Source of the DNA: Lachnospiraceae bacterium
Lineage (GTDB): Bacteria; Bacillota; Clostridia; Lachnospirales; Lachnospiraceae
Assembly (NCBI GenBank): GCA_015057435.1
Contig: SVEJ01000018.1
Location: forward strand, 1 to 55,841
Direction of reading: 5' to 3'
DNA: 55,841 nt
Shown here: in pieces, positions 6,843 to 47,386 of the stretch
How the letters are laid out: each line of letters begins with the position of its first letter
How positions within the stretch are numbered: position 1 is the first letter of the stretch
Position numbers and translations under genes: made by a program
The notes under the pieces: generated by a model
The model's database searches: none
What the model was told of the DNA's origin: nothing
The model's input: only the letters and a program-made list of their open reading frames with translations

Positions 6843-7466
6843 ATGACTTATCCGTTCAAACCAAAAGAATTACCCTATGCTTATGACGCATTACATCCAT
6901 ATCTCAGTGAGGAAATTCTACACTTTCACCACGATAAGCATTATGTTACTTATGTGAACAAATTAAATGAAATCATTAAGAATTATCCGAATTTGCAAAA
7001 CATGACTTTGGAAGAATTACTCACCAAATGTGAAAAGATTCCAAGTGAAGCAAGAACCTCTATTAAAAACAACGCAGGTGGCGTCTACAATCACGAATTA
7101 TATTTTGATTGCATGAATTCCACTGATTGCGAACTTCCGACAGACAAATTAGCACTTGCAATTAACGCATCATTTGGTTCAATCGAACAATTCAAGGCTG
7201 AATTAGAGGCCGCTGCAATTAACCAGTTTGGTTCCGGTTATGCATGGCTCATTTTATCCGAGAACAGATTAGAAATCATCGCAACACCAAATCAAGATAC
7301 GCCAATCGCCCCTACCGTCACACCGCTTTTGTGCATTGATGTATGGGAGCACGCTTACTACTTGCAATATCAAAACCGAAGACCGGACTATGTGAAAAAT
7401 TGGTTTAATCTTATCAATTGGTGTTATGTGGGTGCACGTTACATGTCGTTAGCAAAAGAACAATAA
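6843..7466 (+). CDS. sodA: superoxide dismutase, Fe/Mn family, Mn-like signature
   Basis: Converts superoxide to oxygen and hydrogen peroxide in the cytoplasm. The 207-residue length and both domains fit the family. The metal ligands are His29 (in HFHHDKHY), His84 (NNAGGVYNHELYF), Asp166 and His170 (DVWEHAYY). The outer-sphere context NNAGG before the second His and NQDTP at about residue 150 is the pattern of Mn-specific enzymes rather than the AAQ pattern of Fe enzymes. Cambialistic use cannot be excluded. It is monocistronic on the plus strand. Its stop codon abuts the stop codon of hydF on the other strand with no base between. Confidence 0.95.
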   Translation: MTYPFKPKELPYAYDALHPYLSEEILHFHHDKHYVTYVNKLNEIIKNYPNLQNMTLEELLTKCEKIPSEARTSIKNNAGGVYNHELYFDCMNSTDCELPTDKLALAINASFGSIEQFKAELEAAAINQFGSGYAWLILSENRLEIIATPNQDTPIAPTVTPLLCIDVWEHAYYLQYQNRRPDYVKNWFNLINWCYVGARYMSLAKEQ

Positions 7467-37821: not shown

Positions 37822-39276
37822 CTACATCATAACAACAATCGCAATCACCGCTGTTACCACAAGGTTCACAACCAACGTCAACATCGTATTAAGCTTAAAT
37901 TTGTTAACCAGGATAAAATCCACAATATATCCGGCAAGCAAACCTACCAAAATAACGCTACCTGATATTCCAAGACCATCTGACAAATTCACACATTGAT
38001 TACATAACGAAATCATGATATTTAATAACAAGCCCGCTATGACCGGTGTAATCCACTTACTGATTGTCTGAAAAATATTAAGCTTAATCAATGCATCATA
38101 AAGATAATATACTGCACTCACAAATCCGCAAGATGCAGCAACACTCGTCACAAATCCTACAATTGCAAACATCATACCGGAAAACACTGTACCACCAACA
38201 TTTTGTCCAATGTAGTATCCAACTCCTGTCAGCGTTTTACAAAGAATTGATCCCGGTAAAATATTAACAACCGATACGAGTTGTCCAAAAAACTGTTGCT
38301 CTGTAATCATTGCACCTTCGACAAAGATACCTTCTGCAATTGTAAGGTAGGCATCACCACCACCAAAGGACATAATTACAGACAGGGCACTCTTTCCAAT
38401 ATACGAAAGTACCTCCGGGTGCTGTAACGCAACTGCGCCTCCGATGATTCCCACGGCAGCCAACCAAACAACTAAATCTTTCACCACTGCCTTCAAATCG
38501 ACATTCACATCTTTCTTACTCTTCATAAAGCTTGATATGAGACCATATAGGGCAAAACCAATCATCAATAAAATATCAATCGTAACTACAAACGATGGTA
38601 TCACATCTTTTGCAACGCCTGTTCCAAGGAGATAAATTCCACCCAAAAGCAACGTAACAATCAAATGCTTTGCTGAATATTTCCCCCTTGTATAAAACGC
38701 GAAGAAAAAGACCAAAGCCAATAATTGTATCGTTGATACATAAACAAGTGGAGGATGTTCAATGCCCAATAACCGATTCAAATTCTTCCCTCCGACCAAA
38801 AGAAAAACAGCAAAAATGACAATTAATGTTTTTATAGATTGCCCTTTCCCTTGCTTAATTCCTTTTTTATAAACGGTATGTATATATTGCATAAGCAATA
38901 ACATAATAAACGCTGATACACCAATTGTCATGAATTCCACAAAGCGTAAGACTTCATCTTGTACCATCGAAAATGCAGTCAGTAAAAGAAGTGTAAGTAA
39001 CGCTCCCGGAAAAGCAATTCCTACAGATCCCAAAAGCATTCCTTGCCAGCCAAAATTACGTCGTCCGAAAGAACCTGCTATCTCAACCGGCAATGCGCCC
39101 GGTGTAATGCTGGCCACAACGACATCTTTGTTATAATTCTCTTTTGTATCAAATTGATGTTTGTCAACAACTTCTGACTCAATAACAGGAATGAGAATGC
39201 TGCCGCCGCCAAAACCGATACAGCCAACTTTTGTCATTGTCAAAAAATATTGAAGCAAACCTTTCTTTTTTTCCAT
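37822..39276 (-). CDS. chrA: chromate transporter (CHR family, two fused halves)
   Basis: About 484 residues: two homologous halves, each with about six TM helices, as in long-chain CHR proteins. The first half has the motif GFGGGSILIPVIESEVV, and the second has SFGGGDAYLTIAEGIFVEGA. The N-terminal ITPGALPVEIAGSFGRRNFG segment matches ITPGP-type motifs of the family. Characterised members export chromate by antiport. In gut anaerobes the physiological substrate is not known. ATG at 39276 is preferred over the one three codons earlier. Promoter with TTGACG lies upstream. Confidence 0.9.
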   Translation of the reverse strand: MEKKKGLLQYFLTMTKVGCIGFGGGSILIPVIESEVVDKHQFDTKENYNKDVVVASITPGALPVEIAGSFGRRNFGWQGMLLGSVGIAFPGALLTLLLLTAFSMVQDEVLRFVEFMTIGVSAFIMLLLMQYIHTVYKKGIKQGKGQSIKTLIVIFAVFLLVGGKNLNRLLGIEHPPLVYVSTIQLLALVFFFAFYTRGKYSAKHLIVTLLLGGIYLLGTGVAKDVIPSFVVTIDILLMIGFALYGLISSFMKSKKDVNVDLKAVVKDLVVWLAAVGIIGGAVALQHPEVLSYIGKSALSVIMSFGGGDAYLTIAEGIFVEGAMITEQQFFGQLVSVVNILPGSILCKTLTGVGYYIGQNVGGTVFSGMMFAIVGFVTSVAASCGFVSAVYYLYDALIKLNIFQTISKWITPVIAGLLLNIMISLCNQCVNLSDGLGISGSVILVGLLAGYIVDFILVNKFKLNTMLTLVVNLVVTAVIAIVVMM

Positions 39277-39345
39277 TAAATACAATCAAATTCCTTCATC
39301 GGAAAGAATCTTTTCCTTTCTCATCCTAATCGTACATTCTTTTAT

Positions 39346-40023: not shown

Positions 40024-40050
40024 AAAAAAAAACATAAATTTCTGCTTTAT
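40024..40050 (-). terminator. weak terminator-like hairpin after the reverse transcriptase
   Basis: A 5-bp stem ATAAA/TTTAT is followed by U9 on the minus strand. The stem is too weak to be sure of termination. Confidence 0.3.
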
Positions 40051-41279
40051 TAATCACATTCAATAACAGAATCAGCATAATCCTTATCATAATAAGCGTG
40101 TACCAGATTCCGATATCCCCATTTCTTCATCTGTGCATAAGAAATCCTATAATTACCCTTGTTATGCTTTCCGGTTACACAATAACGAATATATCGTTGC
40201 ATATATTCGTCAACTTCTTTCAGTCCATTCGCTGTAGTCAAATTAGGAAAGAACCATCTGCTCCATGAAAACTCCGTTGCTGCATCCCTCACAAAAAACT
40301 TGTAATTCATTGCTTTTATAAAACCCTTAGCAGCATGTTCTCCTGTCAAACCTTTCTTCCTTGCCCAACGTCGAAGCGCCTCTGCTTTTCGTTTGATTTT
40401 TTTCTTAATCTTTACCTTTGTGTGATAGGCCAAATCCACTCTCCCATCAATATAAGAAAATCCAAGATATTCCCAGCATTCACCCGGCTTACTTAATTGC
40501 AGTTTGTCAAAATTTAATTCCAAACAATGTTCTTTAATCTTATCAAACAACGCACAGCGTAGTGCTTCTAATTCTTCTAAAGTATCCGCAAACAGCATAA
40601 TATCATCCGAATATCGAAAATACAAAACGCCTTTGTTTTCAAAAAAGTGATCCACTTCTGATAAATAGACATTTGCAAAAAAAGGAGAAATCGGTGTTCC
40701 TGCCATTGCACCTCGTTTTTCTATCACAATTTCATCACCAACAATCGCTTTATCTGCCCGCAAAAGATTTTCAAACAAATGATACAGATTACAATCAGCA
40801 TCTTGCAAAAAACTTAATTTCTTTAACAGTAATTCTACGTCAATGGAATTAAAGTAGTTACGAATATCTACCTTCAAACAATACTTTTCACTGATATTAC
40901 GTGTTGTTCGGATACGCATAACGGCATCTTTTACACCATATTGTCTGCGAAAAGCATAGCAGTTCATCGCAAATCGAGAATCATATCGATAAAGCTGATA
41001 TGCTATCATTTTCAGTATCATATTAAAATCTTCCGGATAAGAATAGACAATTCTTTTTTTCTGTACGCCTTCTTTGTTGATTTCTTTTTTTACCGGTATC
41101 GGTACTTCATATTCCGGCAAGCGCAACGTTTGCAAAATCGGCAAATATCGTCTCTCTCGTATATAAAGCGAAAGCCACTCTTGTTCTTGTTTTGACAAGT
41201 GATGTTTCTCTATCTTATATTGTAAAAAAGCCTGCCATTCTTCTGGCAGGGTGACTGTTTCTAAAATATTCATACGCAT
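40050..41279 (-). CDS. stand-alone reverse transcriptase (YSDD), type unassigned
   Basis: About 409 residues. RT motifs in order: basic RT1 (QKKRIVYSYPEDFNMILKMI), RT2 (NCYAFRRQYGVKDAV), RT3 with catalytic Asp138 (CLKVDIRNYFNSID), RT4 (RGAMAGTPISPFFANVYLSE), RT5 YSDD at about 223-226 (LYFRYSDDIMLFA), RT6 (LELNFDKLQLSKPGE) and RT7 (CWEYLGFSYIDGR). The C-terminal about 130 residues are a basic thumb-like region (VKIKKKIKRKAEALRRWARKK) ending WGYRNLVHAYYDKD. No HNH or maturase domain, Cas1 fusion or protease is attached. Start is ATG at 41291, 41279 or 41273, with no strong ribosome binding site. A structured RNA element lies directly upstream. Retron motifs (NAxxH, thumb VTG in its usual context) are not seen. 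Function is unknown: defence or repair are the known roles of such RTs. Confidence 0.9.
   Translation of the reverse strand: MRMNILETVTLPEEWQAFLQYKIEKHHLSKQEQEWLSLYIRERRYLPILQTLRLPEYEVPIPVKKEINKEGVQKKRIVYSYPEDFNMILKMIAYQLYRYDSRFAMNCYAFRRQYGVKDAVMRIRTTRNISEKYCLKVDIRNYFNSIDVELLLKKLSFLQDADCNLYHLFENLLRADKAIVGDEIVIEKRGAMAGTPISPFFANVYLSEVDHFFENKGVLYFRYSDDIMLFADTLEELEALRCALFDKIKEHCLELNFDKLQLSKPGECWEYLGFSYIDGRVDLAYHTKVKIKKKIKRKAEALRRWARKKGLTGEHAAKGFIKAMNYKFFVRDAATEFSWSRWFFPNLTTANGLKEVDEYMQRYIRYCVTGKHNKGNYRISYAQMKKWGYRNLVHAYYDKDYADSVIECD
41224..41250 (-). terminator. intrinsic terminator inside the reverse transcriptase coding start
   Basis: On the minus strand CCTGCCA-GAAGAA-TGGCAGG is a perfect 7-bp GC-rich stem with a 6-base loop, followed at once by CUUUUUUA. 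It spans about codons 10-19 of the RT frame (T-L-P-E-E-W-Q-A-F-L). It would end transcripts coming through the upstream structured RNA, leaving only read-through for the RT. See findings. Confidence 0.65.
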
Positions 41280-41322
41280 TTGTCCAAGCATAATAGTGTT
41301 CTTACTTCTTCTTACTACAACA

Positions 41323-41506
41323 ATTAATAAAAAAGGAAAGAGAAAACGCTTTGAAGGAATGAAAGCGTGCTTCATTCTACCGGACTGAACATATTTCCGC
41401 CACCTGCAAGACTTACATGAAATATGCTTTGCCCTCCACAGGTATAACAACTGTTATATTTCTCTTTCCTTTGTATTAATTTCACAAAGAAGCAACTGTT
41501 CTTTGT
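41323..41506 (-). ncRNA. candidate structured RNA upstream of the reverse transcriptase
   Basis: Terminal arms AAAGGAAAGAGAAA (41332-41345 on the plus strand) and its perfect complement (41459-41472) enclose 113 bases. The pairing resumes with ATTAATA/TATTAAT (41323-41329, 41474-41480) after a 2x1 internal loop, for 21 bp in all. Inside are TATAACA-GT-TGTTATA (41443-41458), GAATGAA/TTCATTC (41357-41377) with an alternative ACGCTTT/AAAGCGT (41346-41368), and interleaved ACCTG/CAGGT plus CATATTTC/GAAATATG that would form a pseudoknot (41390-41443). An 8-bp hairpin ACAAAGAA/TTCTTTGT (41484-41506) lies just outside. Position and enclosing stem recall the a1/a2 arms of retron msr-msd RNA or the ncRNAs of DRT systems. 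Transcription is not shown. Confidence 0.55.
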
Positions 41507-41538: not shown

Positions 41539-41559
41539 TTGTAATCTATCACATTACAA
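41539..41559. promoter_or_regulatory. 7-7-7 dyad upstream of the RNA/RT unit
   Basis: TTGTAAT-CTATCAC-ATTACAA is a perfect inverted repeat with 7-base arms and spacer, overlapping the stop codon of the 183-aa gene. There is no U tract, so it looks like an operator or a -35 region (minus-strand TTGTAA, then a poor AATATT at 17 bases). Confidence 0.4.
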
Positions 41560-42102
41560 ATAACTTGCAATTCGTTCCTTTATGTATGCTGACTCATTCG
41601 GCAAATACTCAAAAAAGTCAAGCATTGGTATATCATATCGTTTACAATAATCCAACACTTCCCGATTCACAGCTCGATTATATTCTGAATATTCCTTCCA
41701 TAAGCGAATATACAACTTACATACTCCATCCTGATAGATTCCGTAAGAAATCGGAGCCGGCTGCTTGTATCCATTCGTTCTTCCCCGTGTATAAGCATCC
41801 TGTCCGTAGCCCTGTTCAAGTTCTTCCACCGATATCATGTTCTTAAGTTCATATGAACCATTACTTTCTAAGATTTCTTTCAATTTCACCTCAAATAATG
41901 CATGCTTTCCATGTTCTTTTACTGCCTCGGCAGCCTGTGAAAGTTTATCAACCTGACGATTCACGACCGGTGTTACATTCTCGTCTACCATTTCCCGAAT
42001 CTTACTATTCACTGCAGTTGATACAGAATCACTCACCGCATTCGTGATGGTTCTTGTTGCCTCTCTTGTCACATTACGAACAATTCTGTCAAATAATCCC
42101 AT
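41554..42102 (-). CDS. uncharacterised 182-aa soluble protein
   Basis: Starts at the ATG at 42102, with GGAGG 7 bases upstream (an earlier in-frame start lacks one). The N-terminal third is an amphipathic helix region with many Thr/Val/Arg residues (FDRIVRNVTREATRTITNAV), then a charged coil (VDKLSQAAEAVKEHGKHALF) and a mixed alpha/beta C-terminal half with GYGQDAYTRGRTNGYK, then SYGIYQDGVCKLYIRLWKEY and LDFFEYLPNESAYIKERI. No family is recognised. No signal peptide or TM helix. It has its own promoter, sits upstream of the structured RNA and RT on the same strand, and no terminator with a U tract separates them. Confidence 0.65.
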   Translation of the reverse strand: MGLFDRIVRNVTREATRTITNAVSDSVSTAVNSKIREMVDENVTPVVNRQVDKLSQAAEAVKEHGKHALFEVKLKEILESNGSYELKNMISVEELEQGYGQDAYTRGRTNGYKQPAPISYGIYQDGVCKLYIRLWKEYSEYNRAVNREVLDYCKRYDIPMLDFFEYLPNESAYIKERIASYL

Positions 42103-44122: not shown

Positions 44123-44167
44123 GTGAGAAAACGGTGTATATATCACAAACTTAAGAGGTATATAATA

Positions 44168-45151
44168 GTGAACAGAATAAAACAGATTCCGTCACAGTGT
44201 GAGTCGTGTGGCGGACAGATAGAACAACTTGACAAAAATACATACAGATGCGTACATTGTGATAGCTTATACTACGTTTCCACATCTACAGTGCGAAAAG
44301 TCGGTGTACACATTTCAATAAAAACATTAGTGATAAGAATGGCAATCGCTATCATAGCTCTTATTGCAATTGCTTTGATTGCCTATCAGGCTTATACTGT
44401 TTCTTTGGTAGAAGATGCCAGTCGCTTTTCCATCGCTTTCAGAGACTTTTTATTGGATGTATATGACAAACCGGTGGCGAATATCGACGATGAAGATTTG
44501 GCAAGAATCAAATATTTGCGAATTGAACGAATCAAGAAATGTTATCATTTTACATATAGTTTTGAAGATTATTATGACTACATACCAACGGAATTTGAAA
44601 ATCATACAGAAACTGTGATGATAAAAGAGAGCATCCAAGATTTTTCTCCCTCTAACATCCAGTATCTATCCGGTCTAACGCGACTTGAATTATACACAAA
44701 TTCCTGGCACAATTATGTGCTTCCTGAAGGAAATCAACTAAGAAGTATTATATGTATATCTCGTGCAGATATCTCACGATACGGAAGCTCTCCCTTTTTT
44801 GAAAAAGTCAATCCGAACACGCTAGAAGAAATCTCTATATATTCGGAGGAAAATCTGGACGAAGACCGCTATATTCTTCAAGATATCCAAGCAGTAAAGC
44901 ACTTAACACTTGAACGGTTAGTCTGTGACGACCCTGCTATCTTCAAAGATTTCAACCAGCTTACAGAACTATATCTGTTATATCCGGTAATCGAAGAAGC
45001 GGATGCCTACGAAATAATCGAATCCATATTACAATGTCCGGAATTAGAACGCTTTGTAATCGAGGGAAAAGCCGCATGGTATCTGTCAGAAGATGAATGG
45101 AATACCTTGCAGGAAACTTACGGTAAAAAAATTGAAATAGAACGAAAATAG
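44168..45151 (+). CDS. zinc-ribbon/TM protein with LRR-like ectodomain (copy 1)
   Basis: About 327 residues starting at the GTG at 44168, with AGAGG 9 bases upstream. A zinc ribbon (SQCESCGGQIEQ, then YRCVHCDSLYY) at residues 8-35 is followed by one TM helix (MAIAIIALIAIALIAYQAYT), so the ribbon is cytoplasmic and about 240 residues lie outside. The ectodomain has an all-alpha start then irregular leucine-rich repeats (NIQYLSGLTRLELYTNSW, AVKHLTLERLVCDD, DFNQLTELYLLYPVIEEA). Paralogous to the next two genes. I know no named family or function. Signal sensing or surface binding is inference. Confidence 0.72.
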   Translation: MNRIKQIPSQCESCGGQIEQLDKNTYRCVHCDSLYYVSTSTVRKVGVHISIKTLVIRMAIAIIALIAIALIAYQAYTVSLVEDASRFSIAFRDFLLDVYDKPVANIDDEDLARIKYLRIERIKKCYHFTYSFEDYYDYIPTEFENHTETVMIKESIQDFSPSNIQYLSGLTRLELYTNSWHNYVLPEGNQLRSIICISRADISRYGSSPFFEKVNPNTLEEISIYSEENLDEDRYILQDIQAVKHLTLERLVCDDPAIFKDFNQLTELYLLYPVIEEADAYEIIESILQCPELERFVIEGKAAWYLSEDEWNTLQETYGKKIEIERK

Positions 45152-45159
45152 AGGAACAT

Positions 45160-47067
45160 ATGAAATCAACTACGAACGAAACAACAACTGATTATCTGAA
45201 ATTACAATGTCCGGAATGCGGCGCGCCAATAGAACTATCACAAGACAATCGTGCAACCTGTCCTTCCTGCGGACAGACTTTCCTGCTTGATGAGGCCGGC
45301 GGTCTCATTGTAAATGTAGATGTCGACTACGGCAACACCAAAGAGACAAAAAAAGCAATCAACATAACGCTCATTGTATTATTAGCTGCTCTGGGAATTG
45401 CGCTAATTGTACTATTGGTTATATTCAGTTTCAACTATGAAGCAATTCAATCTCATTTTTTCTCTTCTGATTACAGCTGGGGTGTCACCGGATCCAATGC
45501 CTCTAAAAAGTTTTCCGAAGATATCTTTGGCAAACCGTACAATGAAATCACGAAAGACGAGTTTTCCACAGTCCGTTACATCAAATATGATATCGACAGA
45601 TTATCAGGAACCAACGAATGGATACACATCATCGAATATAGTTTTTCGGATTATCAGGATTGCAAAAGTGAAGACGCATTCCAAACAACTATAAAAAGAT
45701 GGACCTGTCAGGAGACGTCCCAACACGGACCTCGCGAACGTGCAATGGATTTTACCATGTTTACCGGTCTTACCAGAGTTGCACTAAGTGGACATCGGGA
45801 TAGTTTTACGCGAAACACCTTTTCAAGCAAAGCAGACATTCGCCATGTAACCGCTGATTCTGAGGTCGCAAATGCCAATTACATTCGAACAATTGTGAAT
45901 CCGGAGAATGTAGAATATCTGGAATACATAGCCTGGGGAGACCTAGCCGGCGTCAAATCTTTTCCGAATCTCAAAACACTAAAGTTTGATATATGGATGC
46001 GTTCCGACTTTGATATCACGGAAATCGAACATTGCAAAAATCTTGAATGTCTTGTTATAAAAGATAGTTCCAGCAATTTTATCGGACTTGAAAAAATCGG
46101 CGAGCTGAAGAACTTGAAATCCCTGTCCTTACAATATCTGGACTTACACGAGTGCGATTTTATCACTAAACTATCCAATCTCGAACAACTTACCATCCGG
46201 GTAGACGATGAAACTCCCGGAACGGAAATATTAAGAGAACTGACAGAGCTTGACGCTTTATATTTATTAGGACTGGGATGTATCCCTGCAAAGGACATCG
46301 AACATTTTGAAAAAGCAACGACATTAAAACTATCTATCAATACCTTAGAAGCATTTCTTGCATTGACTGAATTACCAAACCTCAAGACGCTAGATGTCCA
46401 TTTTGAAGTACCTTACGAGGACACGGATGCATGGCCAAGAAAATCTGTCCTGGATATGTCTCCGCTCACAAATTCGCCAAACTTAGAATATCTGTATATC
46501 CAGCCGGAAGCCAATCTCCATTCGGACGAGTTATACATTTATGGATTAGAACAAGTGCTTAATGATTCAAAGCTAAAAAATGTCTATATCAATGACCAGG
46601 AACGACCATATGTTCCAATCCCAGACAGTGACACAACCTTATGGATAGATAAAGATTCCTTTGAAACAAATGATACATTACAACAGCTTCAATTTGTTGC
46701 CTGCACGTTCAAAGATGTGAACACGGAAGAAACGGTTGCTCCGGATTTTTTCTCACATTATCCGAACCTTACGTATTTGGTAGTAGACGCTTGTGGTGTT
46801 GAAGACATCTCCTTTGTAACATCATTACCAAAGCTAAAGTATTGCAGTTTTGTACAGAATAATTTGCAAGACTTCTCACCTCTTAATCAATGCAAATTAT
46901 TAGAGGCTGTCGCAGTATATGACAACCCCAATACAACACCTGAATTGTCAGGGGAGATTGTAATCCTCACCGACGGACCGGAAGGTGTTAATCTTACGGA
47001 ATACTTAATGGGTATCGAGCGAGAAGTTGGTTATATCAAGAAACAGGAGACCGATGAAGATGAATAA
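45160..47067 (+). CDS. zinc-ribbon/TM protein with long LRR-like ectodomain (copy 2)
   Basis: 635 residues. Zinc ribbon LKLQCPECGAPIELS with ATCPSCGQTFLLD (about 13-45), a short linker with VDVDYGNTKETKKA, one TM helix (ITLIVLLAALGIALIVLLVI), then an ectodomain of about 540 residues. It begins with FSEDIFGKPYNEITKDEFST, similar to FRDFLLDVYDKPVANIDDED in copy 1, and has about ten leucine-rich repeats (LVIKDSSSNFIGLEKIG, LKNLKSLSLQYLDL, LPNLKTLDVHFEV, LPKLKYCSFVQNNL, in the LxxLxLxxN style). It starts 8 bases after copy 1. Confidence 0.76.
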   Translation: MKSTTNETTTDYLKLQCPECGAPIELSQDNRATCPSCGQTFLLDEAGGLIVNVDVDYGNTKETKKAINITLIVLLAALGIALIVLLVIFSFNYEAIQSHFFSSDYSWGVTGSNASKKFSEDIFGKPYNEITKDEFSTVRYIKYDIDRLSGTNEWIHIIEYSFSDYQDCKSEDAFQTTIKRWTCQETSQHGPRERAMDFTMFTGLTRVALSGHRDSFTRNTFSSKADIRHVTADSEVANANYIRTIVNPENVEYLEYIAWGDLAGVKSFPNLKTLKFDIWMRSDFDITEIEHCKNLECLVIKDSSSNFIGLEKIGELKNLKSLSLQYLDLHECDFITKLSNLEQLTIRVDDETPGTEILRELTELDALYLLGLGCIPAKDIEHFEKATTLKLSINTLEAFLALTELPNLKTLDVHFEVPYEDTDAWPRKSVLDMSPLTNSPNLEYLYIQPEANLHSDELYIYGLEQVLNDSKLKNVYINDQERPYVPIPDSDTTLWIDKDSFETNDTLQQLQFVACTFKDVNTEETVAPDFFSHYPNLTYLVVDACGVEDISFVTSLPKLKYCSFVQNNLQDFSPLNQCKLLEAVAVYDNPNTTPELSGEIVILTDGPEGVNLTEYLMGIEREVGYIKKQETDEDE

Positions 47068-47386
47068 GCAGACATTACAGGTAGATGTAATAGAAACCAC
47101 TATTTACAATGAAAAACCGGAATTAAAAACCCTGGATTGTTCAGGCTGCGGAGGCAGTTTGAGCATTGTGGACAATTCACGTGCCGTCTGCCCACATTGC
47201 GGACAGACTTATGAAATCAATCATGCCGGAAATCTAAAAATTGATGTGACAGTTGATTCGAAAGGACGAGAGCAGACACGATCTATGGTAACTAAGACAA
47301 TTATTGTTTTGAGTGTTATACTGGTAATAGCCGTGTTAACAACAATCGCTATTATCGGTTATAACCTACATATGCGAAGCTTATAA
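47054..47386 (+). CDS. zinc-ribbon/TM protein lacking the ectodomain (copy 3)
   Basis: 110 or 108 residues (ATG at 47054 or 47060, GGAG 4 or 10 bases upstream), overlapping the 3' end of copy 2. Zinc ribbon LDCSGCGGSLSIVDN with AVCPHCGQTYEIN, then IDVTVDSKGREQTRSMVTK and one TM helix (TIIVLSVILVIAVLTTIAII), ending a few residues later. The segment aligns end to end with the N-terminal 90 residues of copy 2, but the LRR part is absent. It is either a naturally short partner or a truncated copy. A strong terminator follows at once. Confidence 0.72.
   Translation: MKMNKQTLQVDVIETTIYNEKPELKTLDCSGCGGSLSIVDNSRAVCPHCGQTYEINHAGNLKIDVTVDSKGREQTRSMVTKTIIVLSVILVIAVLTTIAIIGYNLHMRSL

Follow-up and report, generated by a model that had tools for sequence, protein, structure and literature searches.

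The window, by which we mean the whole stretch of DNA analysed, comprises positions 1 to 55,841 of contig SVEJ01000018.1 from a Lachnospiraceae bacterium (GCA_015057435.1). A reverse transcriptase (RT) gene, a structured non-coding RNA (ncRNA) adjoining it and a small-protein gene are found there, all on the minus strand (Table 1). The 14-bp perfect arms described in an earlier note, with 113 bases enclosed between them, can be found in the sequence, as can their outer extension by ATTAATA (41323-41329) and TATTAAT (41474-41480) beyond a 2x1 internal loop. The RT could start at 41291 or, judged by its homologues, at 41273, and for these two starts the element lies 32-50 bases away, as that note had given. 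By arm length and by folding, the element is structured well beyond chance: within the 600 bases around it, perfect inverted repeats spanning 60-170 reach a maximum length of 14, compared with 6-11 in 40 Markov shuffles, and the folding energy of the RNA strand (-42.7 kcal/mol; z -3.70) was equalled by one of 200 shuffles.

Elsewhere in the window, a ChrA chromate transporter gene (37822-39285, minus strand) adjoins the cassette; it likewise adjoins the cassette in two further genomes of the genus, G015 and G016, although the gene itself was found in only 4/26 genus genomes at E ≤ 1e-20. Three neighbouring genes at 44123-47386 (plus strand) have a common zinc-ribbon-like N-terminus, and two of them carry leucine-rich-looking repeats by eye.

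Table 1. Features of the cassette in the window.
Feature	Position	Strand	Sequence	Remark
UG26 reverse transcriptase	40050..41273	-		407 aa; YSDD active site
Whole ncRNA (covariance model R1)	41331..41473	-		Rfam RT-5 core 41343-41447
P1 enclosing stem, 5' arm	41459..41472	-	TTTCTCTTTCCTTT (as read on the forward strand)	pairs with 41332-41345; 14 pairs, two-sided changes in all
P1 enclosing stem, 3' arm	41332..41345	-	AAAGGAAAGAGAAA (as read on the forward strand)	perfectly complementary to 41459-41472; a U-rich run comes next
P2 small hairpin	41443..41458	-		last base can pair in the pseudoknot instead
Pseudoknot, 5' strand	41438..41443	-	ACCUGU	pairs with 41402-41407; 99.8% of cells paired
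Pseudoknot, 3' strand	41402..41407	-	GCAGGU	P3 apical region
P3a, 5' strand	41431..41434	-		pairs with 41382-41385
P3b, 5' strand	41419..41427	-		pairs with 41389-41397
P4 hairpin	41357..41377	-	GAAUGAAG...UUUCAUUC	helix length compared with shuffles
J4/1 loop, P4 to P1 3' arm	41346..41356	-	CUUCAAAGCGU	candidate template
Candidate template stretch for the J4/1 reading			CUUCAAAGC
Partner protein	41554..42102	-		182 aa (189 aa from upstream start); putative divergent RTasCOG2852 type

RNA family, predicted fold and RT group

The RNA is a member of the Rfam family RT-5 (RF03026), whose model it matches over its full length (41343-41447, minus strand; model positions 1-104) at 59.7 bits against a gathering score of 45.7. 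No other Rfam family reaches gathering anywhere in the window. The family is located next to reverse transcriptase genes, and the RNA in the window adjoins such a gene, as expected. The RT is in turn a member of the UG26 group, with a near full-length best match to PADLOC RT_UG26 (2.9e-157, 521.5 bits, profile positions 1-395 of 398; next best model 111.7 bits). With these two matches, the RNA and the RT each fall into a family that already has a name, and the suggestion in the earlier note that they might form an undescribed RT-ncRNA class had to be dropped. The link between UG26 and RT-5 may itself be in print already, in Mestre (2022) or Weinberg (2017). Neither a function of RT-5 RNA nor an account of UG26 function was found in the literature searched.

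The 104-position Rfam model has a structure line without the enclosing stem P1, the hairpin P2 or the pseudoknot, and these are added to RT-5 here, with covariation. In an alignment of 96 RNAs, 92 of them distinct (A3), the predicted fold has five helices, among them a pseudoknot and a long closing stem: P1 (14 pairs), P2 (5), the pseudoknot (6), P3a (4) and P3b (9). Two-sided changes were observed in 37 of the 38 pairs across the 92 distinct RNAs, and the five helices are formed in 95.8% of cells, which 0/500 shuffles equalled and which compares with 46-57% for slid structures; as A3 was fitted to the structure of our covariance model R1 for P1, P2 and P3, these counts lean in its favour, the pseudoknot being absent from R1. 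Pairing of the enclosing arms is borne out by two-sided changes in 14/14 P1 pairs among homologues, and what had been noted as a possible pseudoknot is real, as 6/6 of its pairs covary. Conservation of arms and hairpins beside homologous RTs, on which the earlier note had staked its proposal, therefore held. The P4 hairpin has a helix of at least five pairs in 88 of the 92 distinct RNAs, compared with 20% in shuffles, and a mean longest helix of 7.6 against 3.6; its sequences are quite different in a second branch, with the hairpin retained. Among unpaired stretches, conservation is highest in the UUYAA core of the J4/1 loop (U301 in 91/91 RNAs; A303 and A304 in 89/91).

We also compared UG26 with RTs of known type. 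Among the solved defence-associated RTs (DRTs) in a PDB search, the UG26 profile scored 72 bits with DRT9 (identified via PDB 9NLV/9NLX), 45.6 with DRT2, 32.8 with DRT3a, 28.3 with DRT1 and 25.4 with UG15. Non-DRT RTs stood above DRT9 in the same search (8bgj, 95.3 bits; the group II intron GsI-IIC, 91.2; Cas6-RT-Cas1, 80.1). In PADLOC, the window RT matched UG17 (85.7 bits), Drt9 (78.7), Drt3a (66.4) and Drt2 (61.2), with generic RT, UG4, Cas1_IIIb and UG27 models above UG17. With class 2 labels for DRT2, DRT9, DRT10 and DRT3a taken from PMC12632851 and PMC13174585, UG26 looks class-2-UG-like, but its placement in class 2 is not proven, because non-DRT RTs outscore DRT9 and other models outrank UG17. 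Comparison RTs of UG17 and UG27 were sought in 146 genomes and found in none (0/146 each at E ≤ 1e-50, in a search without any control match).

Variation among UG26 RTs was observed at several positions. Tyr379 is present in 68/68 RTs of alignment A5; a C-terminal priming tyrosine was considered and is not claimed, because the RT of L101, which lies outside A5, has His there. One UG26-like RT (L047:1702-2919, plus strand) has YADD for YSDD, the sole case among the 68 in A5, and the UG26 RTs of L010 and L011 carry long insertions directly before the RGAMAG motif. In L113 (6001-7197) the UG26 RT frame is broken after 179 aa, and the adjoining RNA still scores 124.4 bits.

Association of the RNA, the RT and a third protein

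A contig scan with a query alignment of ten UG26 RTs (A1) yielded 278 relatives among 313 stretches. The window and the best 80 of these 278 relatives (L053-L132) made up a set of 81 loci; the best 80 are mostly from Lachnospiraceae or other members of the Clostridia, and the labels of L127 and L132 are Acidobacteriota and Eggerthellales. R1, which was built from 23 sequences and extended to the enclosing stem, found one RNA each in 79 of these 81 UG26 loci (23 of the 79 matches arise by construction, because those RNAs trained the model) and no further match in 955 kb of UG26 loci at E ≤ 0.01. In the two exceptions, the contig starts inside the RT gene (L107; RT match from residue 65) or inside the RNA (L124; partial match, E 0.042). 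Among 27 loci with other RTs (20 lower-scoring and seven viral), R1 gave 0 matches at E ≤ 0.01.

The converse search gave a similar picture. Searched for by itself, RF03026 was found in 22/392 genomes of the order and 15/391 of the class, with the source genome of the window counted in both, and 33 of the 34 RNA-found loci (window left out) contain a UG26-like RT downstream. In L142 it is a partial match (93 aa) some 1.2 kb from the RNA, where the locus ends; in L143 no UG26-like RT was found within 1.5 kb of the RNA. The RT-first and RNA-first sets are not independent, since they share a genome (that of L042 and L006), and L046, L052 and L151 carry the same RNA sequences as L108, L101 and L109. 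Taken together, the census points to a near-obligate, near one-to-one tie between RT-5 RNA and UG26 RTs, in agreement with the earlier proposal of a structured ncRNA tied to the RT.

The 182-aa gene upstream had been listed in the earlier note as a neighbour, which it is, but its role as a third component had been missed. The partner is predicted to combine a variable, low-confidence N-terminus with a restriction-endonuclease-like C-terminal fold that lacks a conserved active site. It is present in 64 of the 81 loci (window and best 80 of 278) and 19 of the 34 RNA-found loci, and in 7/10 UG26 genomes compared with 0 strong matches in 50 others. It is absent from 3/10 UG26 relatives, among them G012 with an upstream flank of no more than 372 bases, and from 11 of the 81 loci (window and best 80 of 278) despite long flanks. 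Across 48 loci, pairwise distances correlate between RT and RNA (0.68), RT and partner (0.71) and RNA and partner (0.48), with 0/999 permutations reaching each value. Two partners of the second branch match the PADLOC model RTasCOG2852 (4e-53 and 4e-57), and a profile comparison links the window-type family to that branch. The model itself does not reach window-type partners, which have diverged too far: the window protein and that of L053 gave 0 matches, and the L127 partner matches at only 5.5e-4, over the C-terminal domain. The upstream gene is thus best described as a predicted third component, a divergent relative of RTasCOG2852, which the PADLOC model misses in the branch of the window. 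No convincing match to the partner was found by sequence in Pfam or PDB, no SLATT match in 63 partners (0/63), and no paper on COG2852 together with a reverse transcriptase in the literature searched.

UG26 is sporadic among the genomes searched. No UG26 RT was found in phage and plasmid records at E ≤ 1e-20, and viral contigs gave seven RT matches with 25-36% identity. Judged by recurrence at the best 80 of the 278 loci, the neighbours show no defence-island pattern: apart from the RT and partner families, which are widespread, shared neighbours are found at no more than 12. None of eight tested window flanking genes occurs in the 6-kb flanks of L053, whose RT is 71% identical; the cassette therefore seems to move as a whole, the loci being from metagenome assemblies. 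The eight genes have homologues in only 2/80 loci (best 80 of 278) and two of them, searched in the genus, in 4/26 genomes each (source genome included), and because these are so few no empty cassette site could be demonstrated in either set.

Proposed mechanism and alternative readings

Because the RNA matches RT-5 and accompanies UG26 RTs, usually with a third small protein, it is most likely a working part of a DNA-making machine resembling those of virus defence. We propose a three-gene cassette of partner, RT-5 ncRNA and UG26 RT that would work like the class 2 'unknown group' defence RTs. The UG26 RT would bind the RNA as a cofactor and could copy a short template within it into a short cDNA of repetitive or defined sequence; the likeliest template is the J4/1 loop, directly 3' of P4. 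The partner with the nuclease fold, which has no conserved active site, may bind the cDNA or the ribonucleoprotein, and its variable N-terminus, an amphipathic-looking helix or coiled coil, may deliver the effect, probably abortive phage defence. We put the probability of this class-2-UG-like, three-part reading, with the RNA as RT cofactor and probable template, at roughly 0.7, and we lean, with somewhat less assurance, towards a role of the cassette in defence.

In the class 2 RTs examined to date, part of a cis-encoded ncRNA is reported to serve as the template (PMC13174585, PMC12632851), and in DRT10 the template loop is described as lying 3' of hairpin SL5 and needing an A-B-A' pattern (PMC12632851). 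J4/1 is placed like the template loops of DRT10 and DRT3 (PMC12632851, PMC13174585). It is named as the template candidate because its place matches that in DRT10 and it includes the most conserved unpaired stretch; the assignment is tentative, and we would give it slightly less than even odds. Taking J4/1 as the loop, A-B-A' occurs at chance (43/92 RNAs compared with 47 in shuffles), so a reset of the DRT10 type is not supported. When P1 bases were included, the picture was mixed: repeats of at least three were seen in 12/92 RNAs with two bases (25 in shuffles), in 54 with four (39.6 in shuffles; maximum 49 in 100 shuffles) and in 65 with six (56 in shuffles; maximum 66). No conserved poly-U template of the DRT9 type was found among the J4/1 loops. 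An ACACAC template of the DRT3 type was also tried and rejected, as it occurs in only 1/92 RNAs.

These data bear on whether the RNA might instead be a scaffold or activator, with the RT making untemplated or protein-templated DNA like class 1 enzymes. The lack of A-B-A' enrichment in the likeliest template loop would fit such a role, as would the length of J4/1 (8-11 nt in 78/92 RNAs) compared with the 20 positions probed in the DRT10 loop (PMC12632851). However, class 2 enzymes score highest among solved DRTs against the UG26 profile, and those studied are reported to be RNA-templated (PMC13174585), and we regard the scaffold role as improbable. A cis-regulatory leader controlling RT expression would account for the RNA lying in the RT's 5' region at most inspected loci, but the RNA has its own promoter signature and is not just a leader. 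TATAAT-like sites are concentrated in the bin [-17,-9] upstream of the RNA start (49 in 88 loci, compared with 2-15 per other bin), and those with a -35 box number 17 compared with 0-3; the pairing with a -35 box is the better evidence, because the signal bin is slightly richer in A+T (0.63 compared with 0.53-0.61). In the window itself, no convincing promoter-box pair was seen by eye. In L118, moreover, the RT-5 RNA (6936-7073, minus strand) is found downstream of the UG26 RT and on the strand opposite to it, and the expected place of the RT, downstream of and next to the RNA, is taken in L142 and L143 by a gene on the other strand. Together with the promoter signature, these arrangements make a leader role very unlikely. 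The gene in L142 and L143 encodes about 325 aa and is glycosidase-like by eye; in L142, the RT starts beyond it.

An unusual retron, in which P1 would stand for a1/a2 and P4 for a miniature msd, was also weighed, since the order of enclosing stem, hairpins, 3' hairpin and RT is retron-like. NAxxH and VTG are retron motifs. VTG is found in 41/79 intact RTs of the main set (window and best 80 of 278), albeit near the C-terminus, but NAxxH is found in 0/79 of these, and in 1/68 RTs of A5 (L032, residue 328). The NCBIfam retron St85 model scores the window RT at 54.2 against a cut-off of 235, compared with 521 bits for UG26, and RT-5 is the only RNA family over threshold in the window. Between the retron and DRT layouts that the earlier note had raised, the evidence thus favours the DRT side, and a retron is scarcely to be expected. 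The remaining reading, in which the locus would be left over from a group II intron or related to one, draws on a match to the TIGR04416 maturase model (8.9e-30, 104 bits, under the cut-off of 300) and on a group II RT among the best PDB matches; against it, no intron RNA family reaches gathering in the window, and intron RNA was found at 15/20 lower-scoring RT loci, where RT-5 was found at 0/20. We consider this origin extremely improbable.

Comparison with known systems

Judged from comparative sequence analysis, the window holds what is a real, strongly conserved ncRNA-RT pair, both members of catalogued families. To these families the present analysis adds the complete predicted fold with P1 and pseudoknot, the UG26 tie, the promoter signature, the divergent partner branch and the lack of A-B-A' enrichment in J4/1. 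With the RNA ends, fold, pseudoknot, template candidate and third protein given, which DNA is produced becomes a directly testable question. UG26 is a group found here mainly in Clostridia. The class 2 UG RTs examined to date differ in their DNA products: DRT2 makes a gene, DRT9 poly-dA, DRT3a poly-dTdG and DRT10 tandem repeats (PMC12483538, PMC12489045, PMC13174585, PMC12039810, PMC12632851). A more specific reading is that UG26 with RT-5 represents a mechanistically new DRT type, in which a pseudoknotted RNA with a very short UUYAA-core template would yield cDNA without A-B-A' resetting, to be read or carried by an active-site-less nuclease-fold protein fused to interchangeable N-terminal modules; we hold this to be rather doubtful as a whole.

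DRT9, DRT3a and DRT2, whose RTs are class 2 UG enzymes, share with UG26 a structured, cis-encoded ncRNA adjoining the RT; a pseudoknot is a feature of DRT2 and a conserved loop motif one of DRT9 and DRT3 (PMC12483538, PMC12489045, PMC13174585, PMC12039810). DRT2 is reported to use a 120-nt template, for which the window-type RNA has no room, and the poly-U and ACACAC templates of DRT9 and DRT3 are not conserved in UG26 RNAs. DRT10 differs from UG26 in its separate RT group (UG17), in its SLATT partner, where UG26 partners have no SLATT match and a restriction-endonuclease-like fold instead, and in A-B-A', which is not enriched in UG26 RNAs. As described in PMC12632851, DRT10/UG17 likewise has three parts, an ncRNA, a small protein and an RT, and its 137-nt ncRNA, like the window RNA with its 143-nt model match, has a large closing stem and smaller hairpins, the last of which is followed on its 3' side by a loop.
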